Below, in pieces: positions 33,408 to 63,265 of a stretch of DNA of 64,000 bases (position 1 is its first letter; the number at the start of each line of letters is the position of its first letter). The stretch covers positions 15,961,448-16,025,447 of the forward strand of contig NC_088655.1 of assembly GCF_964019385.1 (NCBI RefSeq). The letters are read 5' to 3'. Origin of the DNA: Sycon ciliatum (lineage: Eukaryota > Porifera > Calcarea > Leucosolenida > Sycettidae). The notes under the pieces were generated by a model. That model saw only the letters and a list, made by a program, of their open reading frames with translations. It did no database searches and was not told the origin of the DNA. The translations under genes and the position numbers were made by a program.

Positions 33408-33534
33408 ACACATGCAAACACACACACACACACAAGCGTGTGCACACAGACGCAAACACACACACATATGCACACACACATATGCACACACACGCACGCA
33501 CGCACACACACACACACACAGACACACACACACA

Positions 33535-33600
<66 letters not shown>
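33408..33600. repeat. (CA)n microsatellite, copy A
   Basis: A nearly pure CA array with AG and GCACG interruptions. The long His/Thr and Cys/Val ORFs across it are repeat artefacts. Confidence 0.95.
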
Positions 33601-33603
<3 letters not shown>

Positions 33604-34563: not shown

Positions 34564-34802
34564 TACAGTACTGCCGGGCACCGAAGAACGGGGTCAGGGT
34601 TCTAGCCTAGCCCGTTCTTATTTTTGGCGAACACAGCAGTTTCGTTCATATTCGATGGTACAGTCTTACAAGTACATTTATGCAGAGTTATACGTCTGAG
34701 TGTACATCATATTCATATTGTACATTACGTTTCTACTTAGACCGTTCTTAAAAAATAGCGAAATCATAGCCTGGCCGTTCATCGGCGCCCGGCAGTACTG
34801 TA
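34564..34802. mobile_element. TA-flanked MITE (TACAGTACTGCCGGGC ends), copy A
   Basis: The left end is TACAGTACTGCCGGGCACCG and the right end inverts to TACAGTACTGCCGGGCGCCG. GAACGG and CCGTTCTTA blocks follow inside. TA on both sides suggests Tc1/mariner-type insertion. Confidence 0.8.
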
Positions 34803-36033: not shown

Positions 36034-36275
36034 TAAGCCCAGTTCACATTCGACGGGGCGCAACGGGACGCGACATAAGGATCGACGGGAAACGCCGGGA
36101 CGGTCACCCCGTCAAGGACTGTGCCTTATGACTCGCACCATTCGCTGTTGAACATCGCAAAGACTGGAGCATGTCGTGTCGTACGAATTGTACAAGATTT
36201 TACAGCTCACCCCAGCCGTCACAGGCCCTTACGTCCCGTACCGTCAGCGTTGCGTCGAAAGAGAACTAGGCTTTA
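36034..36275. mobile_element. 242-bp MITE (TAAGCCYAGTTC ends), copy A
   Basis: The left end TAAGCCCAGTTCACATTCGACG is inverted imperfectly at the right as CGTCGAAAGAGAACTAGGCTTTA. The interior is GC-rich (GGGACGCGACATAAGGATCG). The same family forms both ends of 38243-38978. Confidence 0.65.
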
Positions 36276-37162
36276 GAAAGATTACGTGTTGGTATGTGCT
36301 CCTAATTACACACAAATATACAAAAGGTATATAAAGAGAAAGCATGATCCACCCCATCATTGACACCAACAGCCCGGCACAAGAGCAGCAGCACCTGCAT
36401 TCTATTAACCCAAAGTTCATCTGCGAATATACTCACAGAGTCGTCTCCTTTACTGTGCCCGACCTTGGAAGAAAACAACACAGCAACGTAGTGTTGGTTT
36501 CGGTTAGGGCTTCTACGTTCACATGAACACACAGAAAAGCACAATATATTTCCAAACAGACGCCAACTAGTATAACCAAACAGCAACGACAACACCACAA
36601 AGACCTAATAGTCTCTTGAGCACAAAGTGTCTGGGATAAAAAAAAAGAGCAGAAGTTCACCATCGACACTGGTATTATAAAACTTTCTACAACTGCTGCA
36701 GAGGCAGCAGCAGGGTTCTAGTGCCCGGACCCAAAGCTCATCTGAGAATTTTCGCCATTGATACAAAGCAACGACCATGGTAGCAGCAGAGAGTAACAGC
36801 AGCAGCCGTTTGAGCAGCAGTATCAGCAGTCTCCAGCTTAAAGGGATTGACCTAGCAAATTTTACAGTAACATGAAAAGTGCAACTGCACTCTTTCCGGC
36901 ACCAAATATGCCATGCTGTCCCCCGCTGCAAAATAGAGGACAACTCTCAACTGTCGCCAACACCTTGGCCCAGAGGGAGTCTTTCCTTCGACATTCGCCC
37001 CGGCCAAAGAAGGTCAAAACCCAAGTGGTGTAATCATGTATTTGCTTCTCCTATCGAGACACTGGCAAGGCTTGTATAGGCATGATAAATTGATAATACT
37101 GTATGCATATAACAAAGGCAAACGCACAAACTCACGTCCATGCACATGTGCACGGACGGTGT

Positions 37163-37168
37163 CGTTGG

Positions 37169-37199
<31 letters not shown>

Positions 37200-37212
37200 G
37201 CGCGCGCGCGCC
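37163..37212. repeat. (CA)n(CG)n tract, copy A
   Basis: ACACAC repeats pass directly into GCGCGC, an alternating purine-pyrimidine run with Z-DNA potential. The copy B equivalent starts at about 46452. No gene is recognised between 36276 and 38242. Confidence 0.85.
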
Positions 37213-38242
37213 CACGCCCACGCATGCACAGGACAAAGGCATGTGCAAAGGAGCATGCTCATAAAAGCACAGGACAGGCACACGACTGATCTACGGATGT
37301 ATCACGACATTGAAGGGACGGAGCTTGCAGCAAGCCTTCACCCTCTGGAGATTCCTGAAATTCATAAATACATGTCAGCAGTAAATAGTTGCAGCATAAA
37401 CATTTCCACGGGGACTGTGCAGCTTCACTAACCTTAACTTCAGTCTCCCCAGAATGCAGCAATCAGACAACGGCTACGAAGAGGTGCAGGAAATTTGAAC
37501 AACTGTTTCAAAAGCAGTCCTCCAAGCCTTCTGCACCAACAGGTGATTCAGTTCGTGCTCTTATACCATCCTGGCAGGTAGAGACATTTTCTAATAACAC
37601 GAAGAGCACAATCATCAAGGTGGGCAAATCCTCAAGAGAGAGTGCACCCTAACTTACACTACAAATCATTTACTGGACACTACTGGACAGAGCGTCCAGT
37701 CCATTCAGTCCAGGGGAGAAGAGGCAAAGGCATAGGGCTCCTGAGAAGATGAAAGGGCAACGCATTATCATTACTACATTAATTTTATTATTGGGGGCAG
37801 ACGTCTTCTCTGTAAAATATGAGGACGAAGGGCACATCAGTACTCACATCCCTGCTCATATCACTGCTCATCCCTGTCCTCTACGAGGGCAATGCATTTA
37901 GGGCTGAAACAAGTATACAGATAACTCGCAAACCGATCGTTTTAAGAGCGCAATCGATAATCGTTAGTGTTCAAAGCGAATGCAAACGATTTTTTATGCA
38001 TGCATACCAGTGGCAGTATTCTAGCCCTTGCACTCCATCCAATTGTGGATACGAGTGCAATCGTGTACTTTCAAGCGCAGTAATATTGATGCGTGGCTAT
38101 GAAAGAGATCGGGAGTCAAGACGGTATCTTTTCGATTGATTCGTTGCGGAAGTTGGTGATAAGAGCTTCAAGCCAAAGGGTGACGACAAGCCTGATTCTT
38201 CGTTCTAGAAACAACAACATGAACTCCTCTAGTTCATATTGA

Positions 38243-38978
38243 TAAAGCCTAGTTCAAATTCGACGGGACGCGGCGTAAGGATCGATGGGAAGCGACAGGA
38301 CGGTCTGACGGCGTCCAATGTGAACACCAGGAACGGGAACGCAACCATACTACCGTACGGATCGGGAAGCGACGGGAAGTGTTGGATCAGTTCAACTTTT
38401 CATACCGTAGACGGGCATAGACGGAGACGCAAGCGTACAAAACGGCTGCATTTTGAGTGAGAACAGGAGGCGGCGTCGTGCACCATCCACTCCCGATTCG
38501 TACTGGGAAATTTTTAGGATTTCGAACACTGCGCTTCCCATGATAACTCGCAGAATGGCTAACACGACTTGAGTTGAATTTTAGCAAGATAAGATCTCAT
38601 GTCACTTATGGTATTTAGGGATAGTTTAGGAGAATGACAGATGAACTGTTTTATCATTTCCTAGGGCTACTATTCGAATGGCACAACTTTCAGGGCTACT
38701 TTTTTGTCTCCATGAAAAACTCGTATTGTGAATTTGATTTCGCTTCATTCAAGGAGAAATAATTGAAAAGAAGTCCCGAAAAACAAGAAATTAGGTCCGA
38801 AAGTCACCCCGTCACGGACTGTGCCTTATGACTCGCGCCGTTCGCTGGAGAACATCGCAACGACTGCAGCATGTCGTGTCGTACGAATCGTAAAAGATTT
38901 TACAGCTCACCCCAGCCGTCCCGACAGGCCCTTACGTCCTGTACCGTCAGTGTTACGTCGAACGTGAACTAGGCTTTA
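38243..38978. mobile_element. Split copy of the TAAGCCTAGTTC MITE, copy A
   Basis: The left half (38243-38370) and right half (38803-38978) match the two halves of 36034-36275, with about 430 bp of other sequence between them. The right half repeats GTCACCCCGTCACGGACTGT and GTGCCTTATGACTCGC almost exactly. This is either a longer family member or one interrupted by another insertion. Confidence 0.65.
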
Positions 38979-40432
38979 GACCAGTCAGATGTCTACAGGT
39001 GTCGACACAATTGCCTGAAATGTTTACAGAATACCAAACACTGAGCGGTAGCCTGGGTATATTTAGAGTGTTTGACTGGTGGCCACAGCTAATGTAGCAA
39101 AGGCATCATGGAATTTCTTCATAGTCTTGTGTTCGAGGTGCACGACTACAGCCGGAAAGAATCTATAATTATGAACCAACAATTATAATTGATCTCAATG
39201 TCTCAGTACTCATACTCCTTGTCAGTTTTGTGCTAGATTGTGCACGTCTGACTATTCGAAATCTGGTTTAGTTGGTGGACTCGATTGCATAACTTGTGCC
39301 CACATTTTTCTATGTTACAATGATATTCATCGCTAACGAGATTGGTTGATCGCTTGGAGTTATTGAAAGATCGTTTCAGCCCTAATTTATTTTCACCCTG
39401 GCCACAGCACTAGGCGAAATTCTCTGACACGGCCTTTACCTGCATCCACTGCTCTTTCGCATCACGACGAAGGACATGCAGGGGTTCTCTCTGAGCAGAG
39501 GAAAGTAGCCATCGCCACCACCACCATCACCATTCACCGACAATACTAGAGAGACTATTTTCCCCGTCGTGGGTACTTCCAATAAAGTAATTCCACTTAC
39601 ATAGGTACCGTCAGCGGCGCCACCATGTTCCCAACAGTGTATTCCTATCGTGGGTACTTCCACGGGCAATAAATTCGGCTCGTGCTATCACTCGCAAGCC
39701 ATCAAATAATTCCTATCTCCCTTGCGCGAATTGCCTCTGCAAACAAAATTATTTCAATGATTGGATTAATTCAGTTCTTTTCGCTCGTGCACGTCACGCC
39801 GGGTGCACTGCGCGCGGCCCATCTCCGCCCGTACATTGTTTCATCTTGTTTCATCTTGTTTCATCTTGTTTCATTCGCGGCCCATCTACGCCCGAAGGAG
39901 GGGGCTAATCTTCTCGCAGAAAAGGGGGAAAAGGGGAGAGAAAGGGGGAAAAAGAGGGGGAAAAGAAGAGCGGGAAATTGAAAAAGAGGGGGTAAAGAAT
40001 GGCGGGAAAAGGAAAAAGAGGGGGAAAAGGATGGCGGGAAGCATCCACCGTTTGAATGTGCATACATCTAAAGTGAGGCTATTTCCAGGCTGTGCACAAG
40101 CCGGTACACGTCCACCACGGCCTCTCGCAGCCTCCTCCTCTTCCTCCCCCCCCCCCCCATCACACACAATGTGCCGATTTTCCTAATGTCAACTATCCAA
40201 ATGATTAATTATCCAAAATAATTGCTTGCATTTAATTGAGGGGTAGAAGATGAGTTTCAAAGTTAGTGATTTTCGTCGCTCGGGGCACCATTGAAGCGAT
40301 TCACAAGATGTATTAAAACAGGTTTGAGTCAAAATGTGTAATAATAGTGTCATTAATTTAGAGGAGCATGAGTGCACCTAGTTCCTGTTTCACTGCTGAA
40401 GAGAACGAAAATGATGAAAACATGCTGGAATA

Positions 40433-42040
40433 AAATGGCAATAAATAAGATAAATTGTGCACTCATAACAACAGCAAAAATGAAGAAAGTCAAGTTCCAT
40501 AACGTTTTCTTGTGACTGTCATCAGTGGAACGCCGTCACATAAAAATGTAATAACTAAAACACACACTTATATACATGTAGCTAATATGGTTTCAGGTAG
40601 AAATACAGCAGCTAACAAGTACAAAAAGCGAAGTTTGCACCTTTGCAATGTGTGAATATAGTGTATGTGAGAAAGGTAGTGGCAGATGAATGTGATACTG
40701 TGTGAATGAATGTAATGGTGCGTGTGTATTACTTGAAGAGTGTGAGTGATACAACGTTTTCTTTCTGTTTGCATAGCACAGGGTCACGAGTACGAATATA
40801 CACAGCTTCCAACACCTGCAATTGCTTGAAGAAACGTGCGCAACGAATAACACTAAACCAGGAATCGTCAAACACCTTACGACATTCTGGACTGGACACC
40901 AAATGCTTGTACACTGCAGACTTCCTCTTGTCAACATCAAACTCCTCCTCATCACTACTCTCATCCTCCACCTCCATTCCAATGCCGCCGTCCATCCCAT
41001 CGCACTCGTATTCGTCGTCATCAGTCTCCATCTCCTCGCAACACCGCTTCCCTCTCCTTGATTCGTTCTGTGCCGTGCCTGTGCTTCCTCCTGCGTCTCC
41101 TTGCCTTGTGTTCTCCACTTGTCTCAGTCGTGCCTCTGCTAGTCTCTTGCTTCTCCTCGGTTCTGCTCTGTTTTCAAGTTGTTCCCCTTCCGCTCTTACC
41201 GTTGTAGCAACATGGTTTGTCGAGGAGCGACCGTCCGGCGGCCTCCCTTGCCGTGGTCCGGTTTCCGAGCCGGAAACCAGATTAGTCTGCTCGTTCTCCA
41301 TGGAAGTAGTCGGTGCTTCTGTTTCCGAATTGTGAGCCGTGCTAGGTGTAGAAATAGGCAGCGGATGTTTTCGTGGTCTCCCACGCTTCGGCCTGCTTAA
41401 CCTGGCAGCCTGGGACAACAATGATAATGGGACGTGCTGCTTGATGCGTTCGGACAAGTGTTGAAGCGTCCTGCCAACATACCGACTACCACATTGTCGG
41501 CATTCAAATTGATAAATGAGATGGCTGCAGTGTACAAGCATTTGGTGTCCAGTCCAGAATGTCGTAAGGTGTTTGACGATTCCTGGTTTAGTGTTATTCG
41601 TTGCGCACGTTTCTTCAAGCAATTGCAGGTGTTGGAAGCTGTGTATATTCGTACTCGTGACCCTGTGCTATGCAAACAGAAAGAAAACGTTGTATCACTC
41701 ACACTCTTCAAGTAATACACACGCACCATTACATTCATTCACACAGTATCACATTCATCTGCCACTACCTTTCTCACATACACTATATTCACACATTGCA
41801 AAGGTGCAAACTTCGCTTTTTGTACTTGTTAGCTGCTGTATTTCTACCTGAAACCATATTAGCTACATGTATATAAGTGTGTGTTTTAGTTATTACATTT
41901 TTATGTGACGGCGTTCCACTGATGACAGTCACAAGAAAACGTTATGGAACTTGACTTTCTTCATTTTTGCTGTTGTTATGAGTGCACAATTTATCTTATT
42001 TATTGCCATTTTACGACTATTGTCTCCTCGTCGACTGTTT
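40433..42040 (-). mobile_element. Penelope-like element with inverted arms, copy B
   Basis: It is identical in layout to copy A: arms 40431-40919 and 41525-42013, with the ACATGCTGGAATA direct repeats outside. It exists because the whole 9.29-kb unit was duplicated, not through a second insertion. Confidence 0.8.
40729..41526 (-). CDS. Penelope-like GIY-YIG endonuclease (partial), copy B
   Basis: The protein is identical to the copy A frame at 31428-32225: GIY-YIG half, AT-hook RPKRGRPRKH, acidic insert and C-terminal half ending VVSLTLFK. The inverted plus-strand duplicate of its C-terminus is at 41525-41715. Confidence 0.75.
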   Translation of the reverse strand, partial: SHLIYQFECRQCGSRYVGRTLQHLSERIKQHVPLSLLSQAARLSRPKRGRPRKHPLPISTPSTAHNSETEAPTTSMENEQTNLVSGSETGPRQGRPPDGRSSTNHVATTVRAEGEQLENRAEPRRSKRLAEARLRQVENTRQGDAGGSTGTAQNESRRGKRCCEEMETDDDEYECDGMDGGIGMEVEDESSDEEEFDVDKRKSAVYKHLVSSPECRKVFDDSWFSVIRCARFFKQLQVLEAVYIRTRDPVLCKQKENVVSLTLFK

Positions 42041-42289
42041 ACATGCTGGAATATGCATGATTTAGATAGATGTGTGACTGCTCTCTTATCCGAACATTCT
42101 TCTCATCTGAACCCTCTGGAGACAGCCCGCGTCCCGAGGGGTGGGGATAATTGGCACTCTCCTGTACATCAAATTCTATTCTTAAATTATATACATATTG
42201 TAGAGCTCTTTCTGCTGCCGGGAATGAGAAAACACATCCCAGGTAAGGATACGCCCCTCAAGGAAACACAGCTGGTGGATTCCAACAGT

Positions 42290-42485
42290 CAGGGGCGTCG
42301 CACACGGTACGGTCACTACGGTATTGACCGTACCACTTTTTGCCCCAGATACCCGTGAGTCAACAAAATACACTGATCTGGGATCTAAAATTCCAAAATT
42401 TTAGGCTCAGCCACCACTCCCCCACGAGTCAATTGTACTTCAGATGGCTGACCGTACCACACTAAAATACCTTCCGACGCCCCTG
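42290..42485. mobile_element. hAT-like MITE, copy B
   Basis: Duplicate of 32989-33184, with the same CAGGGGCGTCG ends and ACAGT flanks. Confidence 0.7.
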
Positions 42486-42708
42486 ACAGTAGTATGAAAC
42501 TCATACACAATCAATTAGAAATACTTTGGAGAATAAACCTTTGTTGGTGAAACAAAGTTGGGCGAGAGTATGATGTTCAAGTAAAACGATACTAAAGTGC
42601 CGTAACGTGAAGAAAGGAACGTAGTGCACAAGTTAATGAAGATAAATTCACATGCAGAACACAATATGCCCAGATGTGGAAATTTAAGTCAAGATTAGCA
42701 GAATATAC

Positions 42709-42837
42709 ACACATGCAAACACACACACACACACAAGCGTGTGCACACAGACGCAAACACACACACATATGCACACACACATATGCACACACACGCACGC
42801 ACGCACACACACACACACACACAGACACACACACACA

Positions 42838-42889
<52 letters not shown>
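42709..42889. repeat. (CA)n microsatellite, copy B
   Basis: The same array as 33408-33600 but 12 bp shorter in net length, one of the few differences between the two copies. Confidence 0.95.
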
Positions 42890-42892
<3 letters not shown>

Positions 42893-43852
42893 TTGGCTGC
42901 TATAATGCGATGGCAGCCTAGACAGAGTTTACACAAGCAAATTCCTACTCTTTTTCTTTCTTTGTCTTCTTCTTCTTCCTCATATTCAATTCAAGGCAGG
43001 CTCTTCTATTTTTTTTGCTTCGGTCAACCTCGTTTTGGGATCTGACCCAATTTATTGGGGCAGTACAGGTACCCTGAACCTGAGAGTGTCCTTCTGATGT
43101 CATCGCTCTCCTACATTTTCTGCACGTCTTTATTATTCTTTCTACGAGGACAGCAGAAGGACAGAAACAAAGACATCCACACCATTTTTAAGACTACATC
43201 TTCCAAAGAACACATCAAAAAGCAAATTCTACACGACAAGCATCGGTTCACGCCGTAACAAATCTCCGCGCCATGAAAAATTCGATCGAATGCCTGGTGG
43301 GAAATGCTTTTTAAAAGGCTTGCATACATTTTTCACAAAAGACATTGTTGTGGCTGCCACCGGATTCGTACAAGAATATGTCAACTTCTAATCAAGGACT
43401 GTAATGAGTTCTGCCTTACGTATTAGAGGGGAAGTCTGCTGAATTTTTTTAATTTCAGGACCCGTAGGGTTTGGGGCGCTGAGTCGAATGTTCTTTTCCG
43501 AGGAGGCTGCGGTCCATGGTTCGTCAGATACGCCCAATCGAAAATGAGCGAAAGCGAGCACGCAGTCTACCTGATCCAAGTGATAAGGTCACAGTGTGCA
43601 GCCAGGTAGCCACACCATCTATTTGTGTGCAAAATGGCCAATATTCGAAACGCGTTCGATTTGAGAACCATCTGTCGCAGCTTCTTCGGACCAAGAGCAT
43701 TCGACTCACTGTTACAAGCCCTACGTACCCTGTGATTTTCAGCTCGGCAAAATTTGAGGATACCCCGTTTTTAGGCGTTTCCGAGTTGGACTTTTTACAT
43801 CCGCTGGCTTCTGCGTGCATGCCATAGTCAACAAACATACGGAACACTACAC

Positions 43853-44091
43853 TACAGTACTGCCGGGCACCGAAGAACGGGGTCAGGGTTCTAGCCTAGC
43901 CCGTTCTTATTTTTGGCGAACACAGCAGTTTCGTTCATATTCGATGGTACAGTCTTACAAGTACATTTATGCAGAGTTATACGTCTGAGTGTACATCATA
44001 TTCATATTGTACATTACGTTTCTACTTAGACCGTTCTTAAAAAATAGCGAAATCATAGCCTGGCCGTTCATCGGCGCCCGGCAGTACTGTA
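43853..44091. mobile_element. TA-flanked MITE, copy B
   Basis: Duplicate of 34564-34802. Confidence 0.8.
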
Positions 44092-45322
44092 GTAGTAGTA
44101 GTACATGACTACACCCGCACTGCTGTGCTAGCGCTACGCGAGTCGTGTGGTAGATCTAAATGTACAAGAGACTAGTCAATACACGGACGTGTCATGTACT
44201 GCACCCGGTATGTAGTTAGAGAAGGTGTGCTCCTCCGGGCCAGTGATTGTGCTTTGAGAAAGAAATATTTTAGTTTTCCGCTTGGAATAGTCCAGCCTCA
44301 TTTATGCTACAACGATGAGTCCAGCCTCATTTATGCTACAACGATGAGTCCACAACCGTGACAAGCGACAAAACCGCGAACAGCTCCCGAACCTAAAACG
44401 TTCAGATCCCGAAGTGTTGTGATCCTTGAATCGAAGAGTCGTGTCCGTGGTTCCAAGAACCTGCATTGTATATCCAATCGAGCAGCGTCCGAGCTATGTT
44501 TGCACCAAAAATCGTGAAATTTTCCACTGTATCATGGAAATGCCACACCCTACAGTCCCGCTGTTACCATATTTTACCGGTATAAGTCGACTTATTGAAT
44601 TGAATTCAGTGCAAACAGGAATTTCGGATAATTGACCGTTTGGACAGTTGACATTCGGATAATCGGCATTCTACTGTAATCCTAGTGCATGCAATGAAAC
44701 ATACTTGACTGTTGGGAGTCTTGCTGCGTCAGTGCAAATTGGCAGTTAATGCTAGAAGCTGCAGTGAACAACATCACAAATAGACAATAAAGAAAAGCAA
44801 ATACAACTGAACTTTGATACTGGAAATTACAGATCTTCTGCCCGCATCCACATGTCCATATTCTACATGTGCGATTGATCCTGCAAGATCTTCACTGCCC
44901 GTCTAATTGAGGATGGCACCCCAAATAGAGCGGACCGCTTCTAAACCAATCAAAGACCCAGGTTGTTATACTCCAGCAACCGGGCAAAGACCTGTCACCC
45001 ACCCATGACCCATCAGCCCATCTCCTTATGCTCACATTTTGGTGTAGTAGTTGAGCACCTGTCCTTCCTTCATCAAGTGGATATCCTAAGCATGTGACTT
45101 ACCGCTGGTATATCTCTGCACATCCATCTTGACTGGTTGTCAAGTCCCTTTCCGGAGAGGTAGAGTGGATGGTAGGGTCAGTGCAGTCCTGGCCACGCCA
45201 TGAGAAAGAAGACATTTTCCCATCAGGAGAAGGCCAACATCCTCCCTCTGGGTAGTGCCTTGATACCTGCAGTGCAGTGCAGTAACATTAAACTGCAATT
45301 GAAACTGTCTCCATGCCATTGT

Positions 45323-45564
45323 TAAGCCCAGTTCACATTCGACGGGGCGCAACGGGACGCGACATAAGGATCGACGGGAAACGCCGGGACGGTCACCCCG
45401 TCAAGGACTGTGCCTTATGACTCGCACCATTCGCTGTTGAACATCGCAAAGACTGGAGCATGTCGTGTCGTACGAATTGTACAAGATTTTACAGCTCACC
45501 CCAGCCGTCACAGGCCCTTACGTCCCGTACCGTCAGCGTTGCGTCGAAAGAGAACTAGGCTTTA
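45323..45564. mobile_element. TAAGCCYAGTTC MITE, copy B
   Basis: Duplicate of 36034-36275. Confidence 0.65.
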
Positions 45565-46457
45565 GAAAGATTACGTGTTGGTATGTGCTCCTAATTACAC
45601 ACAAATATACAAAAGGTATATAAAGAGAAAGCATGATCCACCCCATCATTGACACCAACAGCCCGGCACAAGAGCAGCAGCACCTGCATTCTATTAACCC
45701 AAAGTTCATCTGCGAATATACTCACAGAGTCGTCTCCTTTACTGTGCCCGACCTTGGAAGAAAACAACACAGCAACGTAGTGTTGGTTTCGGTTAGGGCT
45801 TCTACGTTCACATGAACACACAGAAAAGCACAATATATTTCCAAACAGACGCCAACTAGTATAACCAAACAGCAACGACAACACCACAAAGACCTAATAG
45901 TCTCTTGAGCACAAAGTGTCTGGGATAAAAAAAAAGAGCAGAAGTTCACCATCGACACTGGTATTATAAAACTTTCTACAACTGCTGCAGAGGCAGCAGC
46001 AGGGTTCTAGTGCCCGGACCCAAAGCTCATCTGAGAATTTTCGCCATTGATACAAAGCAACGACCATGGTAGCAGCAGAGAGTAACAGCAGCAGCCGTTT
46101 GAGCAGCAGTATCAGCAGTCTCCAGCTTAAAGGGATTGACCTAGCAAATTTTACAGTAACATGAAAAGTGCAACTGCACTCTTTCCGGCACCAAATATGC
46201 CATGCTGTCCCCCGCTGCAAAATAGAGGACAACTCTCAACTGTCGCCAACACCTTGGCCCAGAGGGAGTCTTTCCTTCGACATTCGCCCCGGCCAAAGAA
46301 GGTCAAAACCCAAGTGGTGTAATCATGTATTTGCTTCTCCTATCGAGACACTGGCAAGGCTTGTATAGGCATGATAAATTGATAATACTGTATGCATATA
46401 ACAAAGGCAAACGCACAAACTCACGTCCATGCACATGTGCACGGACGGTGTCGTTGG

Positions 46458-46488
<31 letters not shown>

Positions 46489-47531
46489 GCGCGCGCGCGC
46501 CCACGCCCACGCATGCACAGGACAAAGGCATGTGCAAAGGAGCATGCTCATAAAAGCACAGGACAGGCACACGACTGATCTACGGATGTATCACGACATT
46601 GAAGGGACGGAGCTTGCAGCAAGCCTTCACCCTCTGGAGATTCCTGAAATTCATAAATACATGTCAGCAGTAAATAGTTGCAGCATAAACATTTCCACGG
46701 GGACTGTGCAGCTTCACTAACCTTAACTTCAGTCTCCCCAGAATGCAGCAATCAGACAACGGCTACGAAGAGGTGCAGGAAATTTGAACAACTGTTTCAA
46801 AAGCAGTCCTCCAAGCCTTCTGCACCAACAGGTGATTCAGTTCGTGCTCTTATACCATCCTGGCAGGTAGAGACATTTTCTAATAACACGAAGAGCACAA
46901 TCATCAAGGTGGGCAAATCCTCAAGAGAGAGTGCACCCTAACTTACACTACAAATCATTTACTGGACACTACTGGACAGAGCGTCCAGTCCATTCAGTCC
47001 AGGGGAGAAGAGGCAAAGGCATAGGGCTCCTGAGAAGATGAAAGGGCAACGCATTATCATTACTACATTAATTTTATTATTGGGGGCAGACGTCTTCTCT
47101 GTAAAATATGAGGACGAAGGGCACATCAGTACTCACATCCCTGCTCATATCACTGCTCATCCCTGTCCTCTACGAGGGCAATGCATTTAGGGCTGAAACA
47201 AGTATACAGATAACTCGCAAACCGATCGTTTTAAGAGCGCAATCGATAATCGTTAGTGTTCAAAGCGAATGCAAACGATTTTTTATGCATGCATACCAGT
47301 GGCAGTATTCTAGCCCTTGCACTCCATCCAATTGTGGATACGAGTGCAATCGTGTACTTTCAAGCGCAGTAATATTGATGCGTGGCTATGAAAGAGATCG
47401 GGAGTCAAGACGGTATCTTTTCGATTGATTCGTTGCGGAAGTTGGTGATAAGAGCTTCAAGCCAAAGGGTGACGACAAGCCTGATTCTTCGTTCTAGAAA
47501 CAACAACATGAACTCCTCTAGTTCATATTGA

Positions 47532-48267
47532 TAAAGCCTAGTTCAAATTCGACGGGACGCGGCGTAAGGATCGATGGGAAGCGACAGGACGGTCTGACGG
47601 CGTCCAATGTGAACACCAGGAACGGGAACGCAACCATACTACCGTACGGATCGGGAAGCGACGGGAAGTGTTGGATCAGTTCAACTTTTCATACCGTAGA
47701 CGGGCATAGACGGAGACGCAAGCGTACAAAACGGCTGCATTTTGAGTGAGAACAGGAGGCGGCGTCGTGCACCATCCACTCCCGATTCGTACTGGGAAAT
47801 TTTTAGGATTTCGAACACTGCGCTTCCCATGATAACTCGCAGAATGGCTAACACGACTTGAGTTGAATTTTAGCAAGATAAGATCTCATGTCACTTATGG
47901 TATTTAGGGATAGTTTAGGAGAATGACAGATGAACTGTTTTATCATTTCCTAGGGCTACTATTCGAATGGCACAACTTTCAGGGCTACTTTTTTGTCTCC
48001 ATGAAAAACTCGTATTGTGAATTTGATTTCGCTTCATTCAAGGAGAAATAATTGAAAAGAAGTCCCGAAAAACAAGAAATTAGGTCCGAAAGTCACCCCG
48101 TCACGGACTGTGCCTTATGACTCGCGCCGTTCGCTGGAGAACATCGCAACGACTGCAGCATGTCGTGTCGTACGAATCGTAAAAGATTTTACAGCTCACC
48201 CCAGCCGTCCCGACAGGCCCTTACGTCCTGTACCGTCAGTGTTACGTCGAACGTGAACTAGGCTTTA
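47532..48267. mobile_element. Split TAAGCCTAGTTC MITE, copy B
   Basis: Duplicate of 38243-38978. Confidence 0.65.
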
Positions 48268-48499
48268 GACCAGTCAGATGTCTACAGGTGTCGACACAAT
48301 TGCCTGAAATGTTTACAGAATACCAAACACTGAGCGGTAGCCTGGGTATATTTAGAGTGTTTGACTGGTGGCCACAGCTAATGTAGCAAAGGCATCATGG
48401 AATTTCTTCATAGTCTTGTGTTCGAGGTGCACGACTACAGCCGGAAAGAATCTATAATTATGAACCAACAATTATAATTGATCTCAATGTCTCAGTACT

Positions 48500-48708
48500 T
48501 GTTACATTCCCACTCACAAGAACACACAGTTGTGGAATGTATTAGGATTATTTACAAAGAGAATAATGGACGTGCAAAGTAACAAGATAGAAAAGAAGAA
48601 CAAACTCAGACACAGGAAGTCTGAACTGGAGTGCGCATGCGCAGAGCATAGCGTGCAAGCAAACATGCGCAGAGCCTAGCGTGCTTACGCGCACATACAA
48701 ACATAACA
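48500..48708 (-). repeat. 3' LTR of the Ty3/gypsy element
   Basis: 209 bp. In element direction it starts TGTTATG and ends GTAACA. It contains the palindrome TGCGCATGCGCA, a consensus-like NRF1 site, and a second GCATGCGCAG-like half nearby. It is identical by eye to the 5' LTR. Confidence 0.95.
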
Positions 48709-48800: not shown

Positions 48801-51800
48801 TCACATCTCATTAATAAGCCTAGATGGTGACTTCGGTGCACGGGCTGATCGGCGCGGTGCAACAGGGTCTGCAGACGGACTGGGAAGTGCAGACGGTTCG
48901 GACTCGTTGGCAGCGTCTGGTACTGACGGCTGCAATGCACTATCGGGTTGAATCAAAACCGGTGTGTCAACATCACTGCGAGGAAGAACAGCATCAGGTG
49001 GCGCTGTAGAACGATGACGGAGATGATCTACATGGACATGTCTTTCCTGCTGACCAATGCGAACAATGTACGAGACCGGACCTAGCTTCTGTACAATAAC
49101 GCCAGGTAGCCACTTAGGCCCGCTGCCGTTGCGAGTGTTCAATACAAGTACAGTGTCCTCCACCACGAAATGACGACCTTGACCTGGCTGTGGCCGTGCT
49201 TGACGTTCACGCTGTGCAGCTGCAAAGTTGGGCTTTAAGCGTGCCAACTTGGTGCTCGGTAATTTCCTGAAGAGCAGACTAGCTGGGGACACATTCGTTG
49301 ATGAATGGGGCGTGTTACGATACATAAACAAGAAACGGTGCATCTGGGTCTTCTCAGACACATCCGAAGGACGGGACTTCAGAGCACGCTTCAACTCCTG
49401 GACAATGCGTTCGACTTGTCCGTTACTAGCTGGGTGGTACGGCGGTGTACACTTGTGAACAATACCACTCTCACGGCAGAAACGCTGGAACTGGTGTGAT
49501 GTAAATTGAGGACCATTGTCACTCACGAGGGTCTTGGGTATACCAAACGTTGCGATAAATGTTACCAAACTGTCAATCGTCTGCTGAGTAGTGGCAGTGG
49601 ATCCAAGCTTGTATGCGTCGATCCACTTAGAGTATGCATCCACGATGACGAGATACTGCTGGTTGTTGAATTCTGCAAAATCCACATGAACACGCTCAAA
49701 AGCTTCTGTGGGGTACACCCATGGGTGGCTGGCATCCTTGCTAGGTGCTTTAGCTAGAGCTTGGCAGTGACTGCATGATGACACTAGAAGCTCAATATCG
49801 CGATCAAGGCCAGGCCACCAAACAAAGCTGCGTGCTACTGCCTTCATTCTGACAATGCCAATATGGACAGAATGCATCTCATTTAGCAGCAAACGGCGAA
49901 ACACTACTGGGATAACGGTACGGCCACCACGAACTACACAGCCCGACTCTATGGTCAGCTCATGACGAATCTTGTAGTATGGTCGCGTAGCCTCGCTGAT
50001 CTCAGCTGGCCATCCGAACTGTAGGTACTGCAGTACTGGAGCAATCTCACTGTCCTGCTTGCTAGCATCTGCAACATCACTAGCATCAATTGGCAAATCC
50101 TCAGTAGGATCATGGGCATGCTCGTTGACAGCACTGACAATTGCACTCTCTTGTGCGGCTGTCAGCTCCATAGGCAGGCGTGACAAGCAATCTGCGACAG
50201 CATTGCTACTACCAGAAATGTGCTCAAACACATAATCATACTCGCTAAGAATGACAGCCCAACGCTGTAAACGGGAAACAGCAGTGGCAGATAAACCATA
50301 CTTCTCACCAAAAATGTGCAGCAATGGCTTATGATCAGAGCATAGAACAAAAGAGCGACCAAACAAATAAATGTGTAAACGCTTAACTGCAAACACAATG
50401 GCTAAAGCTTCACGCTCTATCTGCGAATAGTGAGCCTCTGCCTTAGCAAGCGAACGGGAAACATAGCATACAGGCCTACGGCTGCCATCAGCATACTCAT
50501 GCATGAGACACGCGCCAATGCCGTAAGGCGAAGCATCGCACTCAACGACCACTTTCTCATTCACATCAAAATGAGCTAGCACTGGGGCACTGGTGAGCAT
50601 ACGCTTTACCTGAGCGAACACCTTCTCACACTCATCTGTCCAGTTCCACGGAACACCTTTGCGGAGCAAGTTGTTGAGCGGCTTCAGAACACTGGACATG
50701 TCGGGTAGAAAGCGGTTGTAGAAGTTGACACAGCCTAGGAATGACTGCAACGCTTGAACATTCTTCGGTGCTGACGCCTTCAGGATAGCCTCGACCTTGT
50801 CCTGATTGGGCTCGAGACCGTTCCGGCTGATGCTGTAGCCCAAGTAGCGTACACGATCCACACGGATAGCACACTTCTGCTTGCGAAGACGCACACCACG
50901 CTCTGCTAGCCGCGCTAGCACCAACTTGAGTCGCCGGTCGTGCTCTTCGACATCGCACCCAGTGATGAGAATATCATCATAGAAGCAGACGACACCAGGA
51001 ATGTCGTGCAGAATCTCATCCATTGTCTTCTGCCAAATTGCTGGGGCACTGGACACGCCAAACGGAAGGCGCTGGAATGCGTAGAGACCTCGATGTGTTG
51101 TGATGACGCAATACTTCTGACTGCGTTCCGACAGCGGTAGTTGCGCATAAGCTTGGCTAAGATCCAGCTTCGTAAACACTGATCCTCCAGCTATCTGCGA
51201 CAACAGGTCGTTCGGATTTGGAATCGGGTGAAGCTTGGAGTTGATGTGCGGGTTGATCGTGACCTTGAAGTCCGCGCACATGCGAATGTCCCGATTCTGC
51301 TTCCTGACAATCACAATAGGTGAGGCCCACTCTGCTGACTTGACGGGCTTGATAATGCCTTCTTGCTCCAGCCTGTCAAGTTCCTTATTGACAGCAGGAC
51401 GCAAAGCAAATGGCACGGGTCTGGGGTTGCAGCACTTGGGAGTGGCACCGTCGTTCAGGTAGATCTCAGCTTCACGATCACTCACTTTGCCCAGACCATC
51501 ACGAAATACTTCAGGGTACGCATCCTCTGCTGCTGGCTCACTCGCTGCAGTGGCGTTCACCCGGTTGAACATACTCTGCCAGTCAAGTCTCAACTGTGAT
51601 AGCCAGTCGCGTCCCAGCAGCGGATGGCTGCCTTCACGTACTACGATGACCCGCGCACGAACATTCTGCGCGCTGTAGCGTACATCAACATCTGCTTCGC
51701 CAACAATCGGCAGGACTGAACCATTGTAGGTCTTCAGTCGCACAGAACATTCACGCAAGGCAACATGTGTCCAATGTTGCTCCCATACGTCTTGCGGCAC

Positions 51801-51902
51801 CAAAGTGTACATGGATCCGGTGTCCACCTCCAAATCCAATGGAGTACCGTTGATCTGCACTGTGGTGATTAGCATGTTCGATGTTGGCTTCCCAGCTGAC
51901 AT
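48801..51902 (-). CDS. pol: Ty3/gypsy Pol polyprotein (PR-RT-RNaseH-INT), intact
   Basis: 1033 aa with no stop or frameshift. Protease DTG is at 27-29 (LEVDTGSMYTLVP). Reverse transcriptase covers about 165-345, with catalytic Asp247 (KLDLSQAY) and YDD at 308-310. RNase H covers about 445-575 (Asp456, Glu496, Asp523, then NAVADCLSR). In the integrase, the zinc domain has His677/His680 and Cys710/Cys713, and the DDE core has Asp741, Asp795 and Glu831. A GPY/F-like module (GPVSYIVRI, 941-949) and a Pro/Ser-rich tail follow. All catalytic residues are present. The ATG at 51900-51902 overlaps the 3' end of the primer-binding site; the frame runs into the LTR as far as a GTG at 51947, but that is not a likely start. 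Gag and its zinc knuckle are absent, so particle formation would need Gag supplied in trans. Confidence 0.95.
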   Translation of the reverse strand: MSAGKPTSNMLITTVQINGTPLDLEVDTGSMYTLVPQDVWEQHWTHVALRECSVRLKTYNGSVLPIVGEADVDVRYSAQNVRARVIVVREGSHPLLGRDWLSQLRLDWQSMFNRVNATAASEPAAEDAYPEVFRDGLGKVSDREAEIYLNDGATPKCCNPRPVPFALRPAVNKELDRLEQEGIIKPVKSAEWASPIVIVRKQNRDIRMCADFKVTINPHINSKLHPIPNPNDLLSQIAGGSVFTKLDLSQAYAQLPLSERSQKYCVITTHRGLYAFQRLPFGVSSAPAIWQKTMDEILHDIPGVVCFYDDILITGCDVEEHDRRLKLVLARLAERGVRLRKQKCAIRVDRVRYLGYSISRNGLEPNQDKVEAILKASAPKNVQALQSFLGCVNFYNRFLPDMSSVLKPLNNLLRKGVPWNWTDECEKVFAQVKRMLTSAPVLAHFDVNEKVVVECDASPYGIGACLMHEYADGSRRPVCYVSRSLAKAEAHYSQIEREALAIVFAVKRLHIYLFGRSFVLCSDHKPLLHIFGEKYGLSATAVSRLQRWAVILSEYDYVFEHISGSSNAVADCLSRLPMELTAAQESAIVSAVNEHAHDPTEDLPIDASDVADASKQDSEIAPVLQYLQFGWPAEISEATRPYYKIRHELTIESGCVVRGGRTVIPVVFRRLLLNEMHSVHIGIVRMKAVARSFVWWPGLDRDIELLVSSCSHCQALAKAPSKDASHPWVYPTEAFERVHVDFAEFNNQQYLVIVDAYSKWIDAYKLGSTATTQQTIDSLVTFIATFGIPKTLVSDNGPQFTSHQFQRFCRESGIVHKCTPPYHPASNGQVERIVQELKRALKSRPSDVSEKTQMHRFLFMYRNTPHSSTNVSPASLLFRKLPSTKLARLKPNFAAAQRERQARPQPGQGRHFVVEDTVLVLNTRNGSGPKWLPGVIVQKLGPVSYIVRIGQQERHVHVDHLRHRSTAPPDAVLPRSDVDTPVLIQPDSALQPSVPDAANESEPSALPSPSADPVAPRRSARAPKSPSRLINEM

Positions 51903-51918
51903 CCCATCTTCGTCGCCA
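51901..51918 (-). other. Primer-binding site, tRNA-Ser-like
   Basis: On the element strand it reads TGGCGACGAAGATGGGAT, starting two bases after the 5' LTR. It begins with TGG (complement of CCA). The rest closely matches the complement of the animal tRNA-Ser(GCT) 3' end as I remember it, with one mismatch. Its last bases are part of the pol start codon. Confidence 0.7.
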
Positions 51919-51919
51919 A

Positions 51920-52128
51920 TGTTACATTCCCACTCACAAGAACACACAGTTGTGGAATGTATTAGGATTATTTACAAAGAGAATAATGGACGTGCAAAGT
52001 AACAAGATAGAAAAGAAGAACAAACTCAGACACAGGAAGTCTGAACTGGAGTGCGCATGCGCAGAGCATAGCGTGCAAGCAAACATGCGCAGAGCCTAGC
52101 GTGCTTACGCGCACATACAAACATAACA
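51920..52128 (-). repeat. 5' LTR of the Ty3/gypsy element
   Basis: 209 bp, same sequence as 48500-48708; it would carry the element's promoter. Confidence 0.95.
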
Positions 52129-58093: not shown

Positions 58094-58446
58094 ATTCGAG
58101 GTCAAGGACGACGGCATTTTTGGAAAGAAATTTCGAATTTTGGAGAAGAAGCTTGCTTTCGGAAAATGTTCCTTTCACGCAAGGCAGCATGCCAGGTCAG
58201 GCGTGTGAACCAGGTGACCTGTGTCGGCAGATCCACGTTTACGTTCCAGGCCGACAGTTTTTTGACCAAGCCGTGAATCGCCCTCGCTCTGACTCCCCCG
58301 GCTACGAAGGAGTAATTTTACAACTCTTCAGGCCAGCTACAGGTCTCTGATGCAGAGCTGCAAGTGACGGATATCGGTCATTTGCAGCCACTACTAAGAG
58401 CCTCCTGGTCGTTGCAATCTGATACATAATATACCTCCCCAACCGG
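58094..58446. repeat. Dispersed repeat, partner of 20804-21117
   Basis: 58094-58400 is the inverse of 20804-21117, and 58398-58446 is the inverse of 15438-15490. It therefore joins two pieces found separately elsewhere. It directly precedes the first MIOX-exon repeat. Confidence 0.8.
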
Positions 58447-58479: not shown

Positions 58480-59610
58480 ACACTGCCGTGGCAATCGAGC
58501 GAAGACGACTTCTACTTATGCAACGATCATGACCACGATATGCTGCCGTGGGTGAGCGAGTTCAACAAATTCGATCTCTACTCTAAGTCTGACAGACTCC
58601 CGGAAAAGACAGCGCTAACTTCATACTACCAGTCGTTGGTTGACAAGTGTACTGGTTCCGACGACCTGTGCTAGTGAGATCTACGATTTTCTCAATCGAG
58701 CGATGACGACTTCTTCTTGTGCAACGATCATGACCACGATATGCTGCCGTGGGTGCGCGAGTTCAACAAATTCGATCTCTACTCTAAGTCTGACAGTCTC
58801 CCGGACAAGACAGCGCTAACTTCATACTACCAGTTGTTGGTTGAGAAGTATATTGGTTCCGACGACCTGTGCTAGTGAGATCTGCGATTTTCTCAATCGA
58901 GCGATGACGACTTCTTCTTATGCAACGATCATGACCACGATATGCTGCCGTGGGTGCGCGAGTTCAACAAATTCGATCTCTACTCTAAGTCTGACAGACT
59001 CCCGGACAAGACAGCGCTAACTTCATACTTCCAGTCGTTGGTTGAGAAGTATATTGGTTCCGACGACCTGTGCTAGTGAGATCTACGATTTTCTCAATCG
59101 AGCGATGACGACTTCTTCTTATGCAACTATCATGACCACGATATGCTGCCGTGGGTGCGCGAGTTCAACAAATAATTCGATCTCTACAAGTCTGACAGTC
59201 TCCCGGACAAGACAGCGCAAGGTCATCTGCCATATATGGACTATTCTTCCTTATTAGGAAGCCAGGGGTCAAAGGTGACTTTTGAGTCAGAACCCCTACC
59301 GGTATACCGCACTATACTACTGCTAACTTCATACTACCAGTCGTTGGTTTTTTTTTTTTTTTTTTTTACTACGTTCACATAACCAGCTCGAAAAGAATAA
59401 GGAAAGACAATGGTACGGAGACTAGTACAAACGTGACAACTTTCCGACGACCTGTGCTAGTGAGATCTGCGATTTTCTCAATCGAGCGATGACGACTTCT
59501 TCTTATGCAACGATCATGACCACGATATGCTGTGGTTGAGAAGTATATTGGTTCCGACGACCTGTGCTAGTGAGATCTACGATTTCTCAATCGAGCGATG
59601 ACGACTTCTG
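58480..59610 (+). repeat. Plus-strand tandem array of the MIOX 3'-terminal coding segment
   Basis: 201-bp units end in TGCTAG at 58674, 58875 and 59076, followed by an interrupted unit (59077 to about 59459), an internally deleted one (to about 59571) and a stub. Each unit encodes LCNDHDHDMLPW, EFNKFDLYSKSD, TALTSYYQSLV and GSDDLC plus stop, matching MIOX residues about 226-284, with about 40 bp of linker GATCTACGATTTTCTCAATC. The fourth unit carries a foreign ~105-bp insert (about 59219-59325) and a T20 run with ~80 bp more (59348-59444). The first unit alone keeps PWQSSEDD, closest to the gene's PWHSGDD. Confidence 0.9.
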
Positions 59611-60261
59611 CACTGTGAAGATCGAACAGAGCGAGCAAGTGTGCCAACAACACACAAACACCGGCCAACAATAAACATAGCGCGCGGAGCACTATCAGAT
59701 CTGTGAAACACACGCCGTCAGCGAACCCGACCGGAGTAGCAAAAGACAGATTGGGATAAGCACTGGTAGATCAGGTGTGTGATAAACGCATCAAACAAAA
59801 TGGTAGCAGATGCGACCGATATGTCAAGACTGGCACTCAGCTGGTGATACAACGAGACAGATTAAATAAGAAATTCAAAATAATCCTTGGCCTACCTGTT
59901 GGCATGAGAAATCCAAAATACGGGACATGAAATTTGATTTTGATATGATAATAGGCCAGTCGCCACATATACACACAAGCAGGCGCGTGCACCACACACA
60001 CACACATACACACACACGTGCGCATGCACACACACGCACACACATACATGTACACACACAGATAGAGAACGAGAATAATAAGCGTACTGTGTCTTGTTTT
60101 GCTTGAGTGAAAGCTCTCAGGTTTGGGTATGGAACGGTCGATGGAGTCGGTGCGGACACCTGATAGATCGGGTAGGGTTTGAAAACAACTGTTCAGGACT
60201 GTGTACAACGGCAGGCAATTACGCGATCAGCCACGGAAGTTAGTCAGCGAGTTGTTCTTAT
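59611..60261. other. Spacer between the opposed MIOX-exon arrays
   Basis: It contains a CA-rich block (59968-60060) and otherwise unremarkable sequence; no ORF of note. It would form the loop if the two arrays pair. Confidence 0.6.
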
Positions 60262-61700
60262 CTCATGTGAGAAAATCGTACATCTCACCAGCACAGGTCG
60301 TCGGAACCAATGTATTTCTCAACCAACGACTGGTAGTATGAAGTTAGCGCTGTCTTGTCCAGGAGACTGTCAGACTTAGAGTAGAGATCAAATTTGTTGA
60401 ACTCGCGCACCCACGGCAGCATATCGTGGTCATGATCGTTGCATAAGAAGACGTCGTCATCGCTCGATTGAGAAAATCGTAGATCTCACTAGCACAGGTC
60501 GTCAGAACCAATAATATACTTCTCAACCAACGACTGGTAGTATGAAGTTAGCGCTGTCTTGTCCGGGAGACTGTCAGACTTAGAGTAGAGATCGAATTTG
60601 TTGAACTCGCGCACCCACGGCAGCATATCGTGGTCATGATCGTTGCAACAGAAGAAGTCGTCATCGCTCGATTGAGAAAATCGTAGATCTCACCAGCACA
60701 GGTCGTCAGAACCAATATACTTCTCAACCAACGACTGGTAGTATGAAGTTAGCGCTGTCTTGTCCGGGAGACTGTCAGACTTAGAGTAGAGATCGAATTT
60801 GTTGAACTCGCGCACCCACGACAGCATATCGTGGTCATGATCGTTGCATAAGAAGAAGTCGTCATCGCTCGATTGAGAAAATCGTAGATCTCACCAGCAC
60901 AGGTCGTCAGTACCAATATACTTCTCAACCAACGACTGGTAGTATGAAGTTAGCGCTGTCTTGTCCGGGTGACTGTCAGACTTAGAGTAGAGATCCAATT
61001 TGTTGAACTCACGCACCCACGCCAGCATATCGTGGTCATGATCGTTGCATAAGAAGAAGTCGTCATCGCTCGATTGAGAAAATCGTAGATCTCACTAGCA
61101 CAGGTCGTCAGAACCAATATACTTCTCAACCAACGACTGGTAGTATGAAGTTAGCGCTGTCTTGTCCGGGAGACTGTCAGACTTAGAGTAGAGATCGAAT
61201 TTGTTGAACTCGCGCACCCACGGCAGCATATCGTGGTCATGATCGTTGCAACAGAAGAAGTCGTCATCGCTCGATTGAGAAAATCGTAGATCTCACCAGC
61301 ACAGGTCGTCAGAACCAATATACTTCTCAACCAACGACTGGTAGTATGAAGTTAGCGCTGTCTTGTCCGGGAGACTGTCAGACTTAGAGTAGAGATCGAA
61401 TTTGTTGAACTCGCGCAACCACGACAGCATATCGTGGTCATGATCGTTGCATAAGAAGAAGTCGTCATCGCTCGATTGAGAAAATCGTAGATCTCACCAG
61501 CACAGGTCGTCAGTACCAATATACTTCTCAACCAACGACTGGTAGTATGAAGTTAGCGCTGTCTTGTCCGGGTGACTGTCAGACTTAGAGTAGAGATCCA
61601 ATTTGTTGAACTCACGCACCCACGCCAGCATATCGTGGTCATGATCGTTGCATAAGAAGAAGTCGTCATCGCTCGATTGAGAAAATCGTAGATCTCACTA
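60262..61700 (-). repeat. Minus-strand tandem array of the MIOX 3'-terminal coding segment
   Basis: Seven 201-bp units have their GCACAGGTC marks at 60291, 60492, 60696, 60897, 61098, 61299 and 61500. The eighth mark, at 61701, is the real gene end. Variants alternate a-b-c-a-b-c (for example CGACAGCATATCG in units 60696 and 61299; GGGTGACTGTC in 60897 and 61500), so a 603-bp higher-order unit was duplicated. Units stay in one frame (201 = 67 codons) and are open except for the TAG TGA at each unit end. The array is the immediate 3' flank of MIOX. Confidence 0.93.
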
Positions 61701-62552
61701 GCACAGGTCGTCAGAACCAATATACTTCTCAACCAACGACTGGTAGTATGAAGTTAGCGCTGTCTTGTCCGGGAGACTGTCAGACTTAGAGTAGAGATCG
61801 AATTTGTTGAACTCGCGCACCCATGGCAGCATATCGCGGTCATAATCGTTGCACAAGTAGTCGTAGTCATCGCCCGAGTGCCACGGGTAGAAGCTGTGGA
61901 AGCGAATCATGTACAGACCCTCGTCCGGGATTGTCGTACCACTGTGCTTCAGGCACTGGTACAGATACTCGTCATGGCCCCAGGACATCGTCACCTTGTC
62001 CAGGCCACAGTTCTGCTCGTACACGCCCAGCTTTGTACTATACACTTCATGCGTGCTGCCCGGGTTCTCGGCAAACGTCTCCGGGAAGACGCAGCGCTGC
62101 GAGAAGCGGCAGCCAACCGGAAACGTGTCACCGACTACGTACCACTGCGGCTCTCTCCACAGGGCCATCACCTTGCCGATGTCGTGGATCAAGCCAACCA
62201 GATGAAACCAGGGCTTGTCCGGATGTGCCTCGCGGATCCTCTCCGCCGTCTGGAAGGCATGAACGGAGTTCGGCAAGTCGATATCGGGATCACTTTCGTC
62301 AACCAGGTTGTCCAGCTCACTGATAATACTCGTGATGCTCATCTTGGCATGGTTGAAACTGCACCACTTCGCACGCATCTCCTTGCCAAATTCCATGGTC
62401 TGTTTGGTGTGCATCTCCGTGTACGTTCTGCTCACGTTGTGAGTCTGCACATTGTCCTCGTAGTTGCGAAAGTCGTCTTTCTGCTTGGCCCGTTGCTCAG
62501 CGTGGACCTCCTCTGGGCGGAACAGGGGAGAGGGATCGCAGATCACCCTCAT
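61698..62552 (-). CDS. MIOX: Myo-inositol oxygenase
   Basis: This non-haem di-iron enzyme opens the myo-inositol ring with O2 to give D-glucuronate, the first step of inositol catabolism, in the cytosol. The 284-aa product has the normal family length. All six iron ligands are in place: His98 (NSVHAFQTAE), His123-Asp124 (LVGLIHDIGK), His193 (WGHDEYLYQ), His219 (MIRFHSFYPWH) and Asp252 (EFNKFDLYSK). VDESDPDIDLPNS, EPQWYVVGDTFPVGC and CGLDKVTMSWG are also present. I chose the ATG at 62550-62552 because it aligns with the usual N-terminus; the frame extends to a GTG at 62627, which looks like upstream sequence. There is no intron. The gene is squeezed between a satellite about 100 bp upstream and the tandem array of its own last exon downstream. 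The gene's last ~60 codons differ slightly from the repeat consensus (YDYLCNDYDRD against FFLCNDHDHD), so it is not simply one of the repeats. Confidence 0.95.
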   Translation of the reverse strand: MRVICDPSPLFRPEEVHAEQRAKQKDDFRNYEDNVQTHNVSRTYTEMHTKQTMEFGKEMRAKWCSFNHAKMSITSIISELDNLVDESDPDIDLPNSVHAFQTAERIREAHPDKPWFHLVGLIHDIGKVMALWREPQWYVVGDTFPVGCRFSQRCVFPETFAENPGSTHEVYSTKLGVYEQNCGLDKVTMSWGHDEYLYQCLKHSGTTIPDEGLYMIRFHSFYPWHSGDDYDYLCNDYDRDMLPWVREFNKFDLYSKSDSLPDKTALTSYYQSLVEKYIGSDDLC

Positions 62553-62652
62553 CGTGGCTGCTGTTGCGAGCACGGGCCAACTGGACTGTGCACCGATGCC
62601 GGGAGAATGCTGCAATTCCTTGCTCACCCGTGCGTGTTTGTGGAGGATGTTA

Positions 62653-63265
62653 TGCTCTCGGGCAAGCCCTCGAGCGTAGTGTCTACGGAGCTGAAACTCA
62701 CAAGCTGAGTAACCGTTAGTTTCATCTCGAGCAAGATGAAGTTTCAGCTCTGTACGCTCTCGGGCAGGGCCTCGAGCGTACGGAGCTGAAACTTACAAGC
62801 TGAGTAACCGTTAGTTTCATCTCGAGCAAGGTGAAATTTCAGCTCCTTACGCTCTCGGGCAAGGCCTCGAGCGTACGGAGCTGAAACTCACAAGCTGAGT
62901 AACCGTTAGTTTCATCTCGAGCAAGGTGAAATTTCAGCTCCGTACGCTCTCGGGCAAGCCCTCGAGCGTACGGAGCTGAAACTCACAAGCTGCTCGAGAT
63001 GAAACTAACGGTTAGTTTCAGCTCCGTACGCTCGAGGGCTTGCCCTCGAGCGTACGGAGCTGAAACTTCACCTTGCTCGAGATGAAACTAACGGTTACGT
63101 ACTCAGCTTGTGAGTTTCAGCTCCGTACGCTCGAGGCCTTGCCCGAGGCCCGGGCGTACGGAGCTGAAATTTCACCTTGCTCGAGATGAAACTAACGGTT
63201 ACTCAGCTTGTGAGTTTCAGCTCCGTAGACTCTACGCTCGAGGGCTTGCCCGAGAGCGTAACAGA
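62653..63265. repeat. 95-bp palindromic satellite upstream of MIOX
   Basis: A 95-bp unit (GTAACCGTTAGTTTCATCTC at about 62709, 62804 and 62899) is built of two snap-back parts: GAGCTGAAA...TTTCAGCTC and GTACGCTC...GAGCGTAC. After a turn near 62985-63020 the units continue in reverse orientation to about 63260, making one large compound palindrome. The first unit begins only about 100 bp upstream of the MIOX start codon, so it overlaps the expected promoter. Confidence 0.9.

Follow-up and report, generated by a model that had tools for sequence, protein, structure and literature searches.

Partial inverted copies of genes are a known source of natural silencing RNAs, and the birth of such loci has been poorly seen. 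Soybean GmIRCHS is described as an inverted repeat of a CHS pseudogene in tail-to-tail arrangement, with a CHS gene 680 bp away; the repeat measures 1,087 bp with 78-bp spacing, lies behind a DnaJ-gene promoter region and is reported to give double-stranded RNA (PMC13051633). For Drosophila, a second source places the inverted exon fragment of D. simulans hp58 one gene from its parent and the origin of hp88 in a 3' UTR, and states that Drosophila hairpin RNAs (hpRNAs) have siRNAs and that their targets rise in dcr-2 mutants (PMC10317233).

We analysed a 64-kb window, the whole stretch of DNA under study (C14:15961448-16025447), and also examined the adjacent 16.5 kb. In this window, tandem copies of the end of the gene MIOX1 form two arrays that face each other. 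Compared with these cases, the locus is like GmIRCHS in being a tail-to-tail inverted partial gene repeat near an intact copy that could yield double-stranded RNA, and unlike it in having arms of many 201-bp tandem units. Like hp58, it repeats a piece of a gene locally and in inverted form beside the parent gene; the likeness to hp88 would lie in birth within a 3' UTR. As far as its source describes it, hp-CG4068 consists of whole hairpins in tandem, whereas each arm here is itself a tandem array. Unlike GmIRCHS, and unlike the Drosophila loci with their siRNAs and dcr-2-sensitive targets, the MIOX locus is known here from its DNA sequence alone. Judged by layout, it shares the published inverted-repeat architecture and adds tandem, higher-order arms.

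Higher-order satellite arrays keep a fixed register, change by unequal exchange and build multi-unit higher-order repeats, and in foldback elements a middle segment lies between arrays of tandem units in inverted orientation. The MIOX array resembles satellites in its head-to-tail units, fixed register and 603-bp higher-order repeat, but it is confined to one locus, and its dozen or so units come from the coding end of a gene. Within a partial coverage of the literature we found no published account of this locus, and papers on MIOX and tandem repeats, judged by title and the start of the abstract, included none on such an array. The locus may show an early stage of the process, with a control in the same genome: a 98%-identical sister gene that shares the 3' flank but carries no array. 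Such a locus makes it possible to ask if a gene tail repeated in tandem and in both orientations does nothing, silences its gene or rewrites the end of that gene; in the first case, it would warn against reading such arrays as regulators from sequence alone.

An intact gene and its facing arrays

MIOX1 is a real, intact, intronless gene of sugar metabolism. Its product matched the Pfam domain PF05153 (E=2e-110) and the structures PDB 2huo/2ibn (best E 1.3e-108), and it is one of two full-length MIOX matches in the 538-Mb genome. All 13 MIOX protein matches genome-wide (538 Mb, 313 contigs; 14 of 14 candidates scored) fell in one 11-kb cluster, C14:16.0199-16.0312 Mb, which indicates a local expansion. 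The sequence-only reading had described one exon of a host gene amplified as a satellite. Neither element held, since MIOX1 is a single-exon gene, so that no exon was amplified, and the array is local. In viral contigs, one stretch fitted the MIOX pattern with no relatives found, and the 201-bp unit pattern gave no match.

The repeat unit of 201 bp comprises the terminal 182 nt of the MIOX coding sequence, stop included, and 19 nt beyond it. TRF and a repeat search recovered 201-bp arrays at 58492-59218, in the plus arm, and at 60268-61877, in the minus arm including the gene. Inverted matches between the arms reached 688 nt at 95-96% identity; the inverted arrangement is real and more than chance. 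The unit length preserves the MIOX frame, and all ten full units terminate in TAG TGA or TGG TGA. A search of the window for RNA families gave no match within the arrays and one tRNA match, at 22847-22914.

Features of the MIOX1 locus (window coordinates; "." where no strand applies)
Feature	Position	Strand	Description
Dispersed 343-bp repeat	58095..58437	plus	48 bp from the plus arm
Plus arm, three full units	58486..59095	plus	p1 58486-58693, p2 58694-58894, p3 58895-59095
p4, interrupted unit	59096..59479	plus	insertion 59219-59321 and dispersed repeat ~59348-59441
p5 and p6	59480..59609	plus	p5 59480-59588, internal deletion; p6 59589-59609, 21-nt stub
Spacer	59610..60268	minus	659 bp, MIOX 3' flank with (CA)n tract
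Minus arm, seven full units	60269..61678	minus	m1 (61478-61678) to m7 (60269-60469)
MIOX1 own 201-nt tail, array register	61679..61879	minus	182 nt of CDS including stop, and 19 nt
MIOX1	61698..62552	minus	myo-inositol oxygenase, 284 aa, uninterrupted single-exon CDS
95-bp palindromic repeat	62648..63263	.	two short tandem arrays in opposite orientation, ~95 bp 5' of the MIOX1 start codon

Seven copies of the gene tail, as had been read from the letters, make up the minus arm and run into the intact gene: m1 adjoins the MIOX1 tail directly (61678/61679). A three-unit block recurs in this arm, m1-m3 and m4-m6, as a 603-bp higher-order repeat (603/606 nt, with one mismatch and one 3-nt gap). The plus arm, in the opposite orientation, had been credited with about six copies; six pieces are indeed present, but only three are complete and three are damaged. 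Unit p1 carries on its 5' side 7 extra nt of gene sequence (CCGTGGC) and has one further site in common with the genes. The second insertion in p4 is a dispersed repeat of about 94 bp with poly-T at its start; in a genome search with 40 of 1899 candidates scored, 38 of the 52 matches listed were off-locus and covered only this repeat. Two insertions and a deletion break up the plus arm, which is in decay.

The gap of about 650 bp read between the arrays was borne out by the spacer, and the second intact gene, MIOX2, identified this segment. MIOX2 is a 284-codon match at C14:16030352-16031203 on the plus strand, which adds one codon (Trp) before a TGA; it lies head-to-head with MIOX1, 6.35 kb apart, at 97.5% protein identity. 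It has a single tail and no array; this tail is followed by 11 more common nt and then by the spacer sequence. Window positions 59608-60199 matched the MIOX2 3' flank at 95%, with 365 of 367 and 122 of 125 sites identical outside the CA tract. Because the same flank follows MIOX2, the spacer is the MIOX 3' flank, with arrays on either side. Homology between the two loci stops at 59608, the start of the plus arm, where p6 also ends; on the other side it stops at 62642, close beside the 95-bp repeat.

A stretch of 78 nt (60200-60277), which follows the final coding portion of the minus arm, is absent at MIOX2. It is flanked by TAC on both sides, and the comparison suggests that these nucleotides were deleted from MIOX2. 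Given the paired TAC, MIOX2 may never have had an array, or it may have lost one together with the 78 nt.

Relationships among the units and the origin of the array

The ten full units separated from MIOX1 and MIOX2 in a phylogenetic tree with 98% ultrafast bootstrap support. Plus and minus units were intermixed, and most inner nodes had 22-74% support. Five sites were fixed in all ten units relative to both genes, all within the first 57 nt (Fisher p=0.002), so the founder differed there already, which points to a single founder. Mean differences per 201 sites were 9.1 between the arms (21 pairs), 8.0 within the plus arm and 6.3 within the minus arm.

The gene and the array probably exchange sequence, as the 603-bp higher-order repeat and a long identical stretch indicate. 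The final 145 nt of MIOX1 and m3 were identical, yet 11 of the 56 preceding sites differed (0/20000 permutations), and m6 showed the same pattern against MIOX1 once its 3-nt insertion was omitted. A long-run test for exchange with MIOX1 gave p of about 1e-4 or less for m2, m3, m5 and m6, a weak signal for p2 (p=0.014), and values above 0.05 for m1, m4, m7, p1 and p3. At three synonymous sites MIOX1 agreed with the array and MIOX2 differed, an agreement that could be explained by mutations in MIOX2.

Changes among the ten units comprised 20 nonsynonymous and 6 synonymous, against a neutral expectation of 74-81% nonsynonymous; two-change codons were scored change by change, which produced one apparent stop. 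Differences between the gene and the unit consensus, counted as whole codons, were 7 nonsynonymous to 2 synonymous. His225 and Tyr230 were invariant in 80/80 bacterial MIOX loci, sampled from at least 596 relatives for the limited purpose of polarising residues, and both are kept in MIOX1. The units carry Asp at 230 across the array, and p1 carries Gln at 225. The neutral-like changes and the alteration of these two positions indicate that the copies are not maintained as protein. Repeats that encode protein were ruled out on the same grounds and because every full unit carries an in-frame stop.

We favour an origin of the array as a by-product of local recombination within a small cluster of MIOX genes in inverted arrangement, at a probability of about 0.63. 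The starting point would have been a third MIOX copy tail-to-tail with MIOX1, or its ancestor. Unit p1 is possibly all that is left of this copy, as the remnant of a 5'-truncated gene facing MIOX1; the suggestion draws on few sites, the 7 extra nt and the one common site. A tandem duplication of the last 182 coding nt and 19 nt of 3' sequence would then have founded the array, and by eye the join shows about 2 bp of microhomology. Growth would have followed by unequal exchange, which the 201-bp register supports and of which we read the 603-bp higher-order repeat as the mark. An inversion or inverted duplication may have set both orientations, which are directly visible, around the MIOX 3' flank. 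The array would also exchange sequence with the working end of MIOX1, as the 145 identical nt suggest.

Some observations weigh against this reading. Divergence between the arms is only modestly greater than that among units of one arm, and three plus units are complete over about 600 bp, as would also be expected of a useful hairpin. If local recombination is the origin, the present effect on MIOX1 is likely to be passive: an abnormal 3' end that would be self-complementary if transcribed through.

Hairpin RNA and other explanations

Alternatively, the locus may act as a silencer. Read-through of MIOX1, or transcription from a separate promoter, would give a long double-stranded RNA that Dicer cuts into siRNAs, possibly amplified by an RNA-dependent RNA polymerase (RdRP), and these would lower MIOX1 and MIOX2 mRNA. 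We consider this doubtful overall, although several lines of evidence favour it. In the hypothetical read-through transcript, 85 of 835 MIOX1 21-mers (110 of 855 CDS nt) and 67 of 835 MIOX2 21-mers had perfect antisense matches. Its predicted fold had a minimum free energy of -2139 kcal/mol, compared with -919 kcal/mol when the plus arm was flipped with the same letters. Of 1344 predicted pairs, 980 spanned more than 500 nt, and 94% of the MIOX1 tail (61886-61698) was paired. A long hairpin from the locus is thus structurally possible in the model. A hairpin of more than 1 kb matching MIOX had been proposed from the letters; the long fold and the antisense 21-mers agree with that proposal, but the 980 long-range pairs fall slightly short of the length.

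Signals for transcript ends gave a divided picture. The minus strand from the MIOX1 stop to 53725 has no AATAAA or ATTAAA, although about 4 would be expected (chance 0.02). Across the 3.2 kb that separate the stop from the far array, however, the expectation is 1.6 and the absence has a chance of 0.20; moreover, the variant signal AATACA is present in m7, at 60316. At MIOX2, the earliest of ten signal types scanned was CATAAA, about 860 nt past the stop, which is beyond the shared flank and also beyond the point that corresponds to the plus-arm start at MIOX1.

The genome probably has the capacity for RNA interference. It encodes an Argonaute whose domains are ArgoN, PAZ, Mid and Piwi, and 23 RdRP-family matches lie in several places. 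Dicer is likely: one Dicer_dimer match (L101) has no rival domain. A second (L102) belongs to a protein with FHA and double-stranded-RNA-binding domains, so the Dicer assignment rests on the single domain match at L101. GmIRCHS and hp58 offer published precedents, and MIOX2 would serve as a natural control for silencing.

Against a silencing role, the plus arm is losing its integrity through insertions and deletion, the selection test on the units showed no constraint at the protein level, and a history of recombination in an inverted gene cluster accounts for what is seen. A hairpin that strongly silenced the very gene to which it is joined would also be costly unless confined to certain tissues. 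In a specific form of the proposal, MIOX1 mRNA would be its own silencer: its last 60 codons would pair with the antisense tail copies, the resulting siRNAs would act on MIOX1 and MIOX2 with RdRP amplification, and copy number would set the strength. We regard this form as unlikely, a little more so than silencing in general. Double-stranded RNA from the array is possible, yet it would not be the reason why the array exists.

The array might instead act mainly as a donor reservoir that repeatedly rewrites the MIOX1 C-terminus by gene conversion, which we judge very unlikely. The 145-nt identity with m3 fits such rewriting, as does a T at unit position 166 (0-based) that is present in MIOX1 and m1-m6 and absent from MIOX2, m7 and p1-p3. 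However, MIOX1 has not taken up the diverged sequence at the start of the units, their first 57 nt, and selection for variants was not seen.

An assembly artefact is improbable to a still higher degree. Assembly is difficult where repeats are both tandem and inverted and contain 603-bp blocks that are nearly identical, and the assembled copy number could be wrong; but the arms carry private substitutions, insertions and a dispersed-repeat insertion, and the locus sits within a 28-Mb contig. A foldback-type mobile element, with long terminal repeats built of tandem gene-tail copies, is hardly credible: the inverted tandem arrays around a middle segment do resemble such elements, but MIOX-tail copies were not found dispersed in the genome (13/13 matches in the one cluster), what lies between the arrays is the 3' flank of MIOX itself and one outer end lies inside MIOX1.

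Neighbouring repeats and genes

The 343-bp repeat beside the plus arm was at first taken as two pieces of possible spliced or retrocopied origin; this was dropped when a genome search showed one dispersed repeat. Among its non-self long matches, 26 of 39 (40 of 834 candidates scored) could be grouped into 13 inverted pairs with 11.7-15.8 kb between the partners, and this spacing suggests that the repeat is probably the terminal repeat of a family of DNA elements of about 12 kb. Within the window, the copy by the plus arm is paired with an end at 20804-21117 and 15446-15488, 43 kb apart. The left end is split by 5.3 kb, and CCCAACC lies beside both outer ends, as though many insertions had entered a single element.

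The 95-bp repeat upstream of MIOX1 begins next to the end of the upstream homology between the two genes. Members of its family, with at least 359 matches (40 of 102 candidates scored), are spread over many contigs and in some places form tandem arrays.

Further left, the window contains a direct duplication of 8.6 kb (30597-39210 and 39895-48499) at 99.8% identity. Each copy holds a perfect 489-bp inverted repeat overlapping a 312-codon frame, which in the first copy had a GIY-YIG match below the Pfam cut-off. At 48801-51971, a 1056-codon open frame with aspartyl protease, reverse transcriptase, RNase H and integrase domains is flanked by perfect 209-bp repeats (48500-48708 and 51920-52128); we annotate this element as a retrotransposon.

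The window also encodes a homeodomain protein, whose POU match fell below the cut-off, and a MON1-type gene (5970-7766), in which a single unbroken frame holds three longin domains; from these two we take the genome to be probably that of an animal. Single-frame genes thus include MIOX, the MON1-type gene and, elsewhere in the genome, an Argonaute at L103 (more than 860 codons). RdRP-family (PF05183) matches at L105, L106 and C4:16.85-16.93 Mb are in pieces, through introns or decay, as are further Piwi matches, many of which are partial and lie on contig C8.
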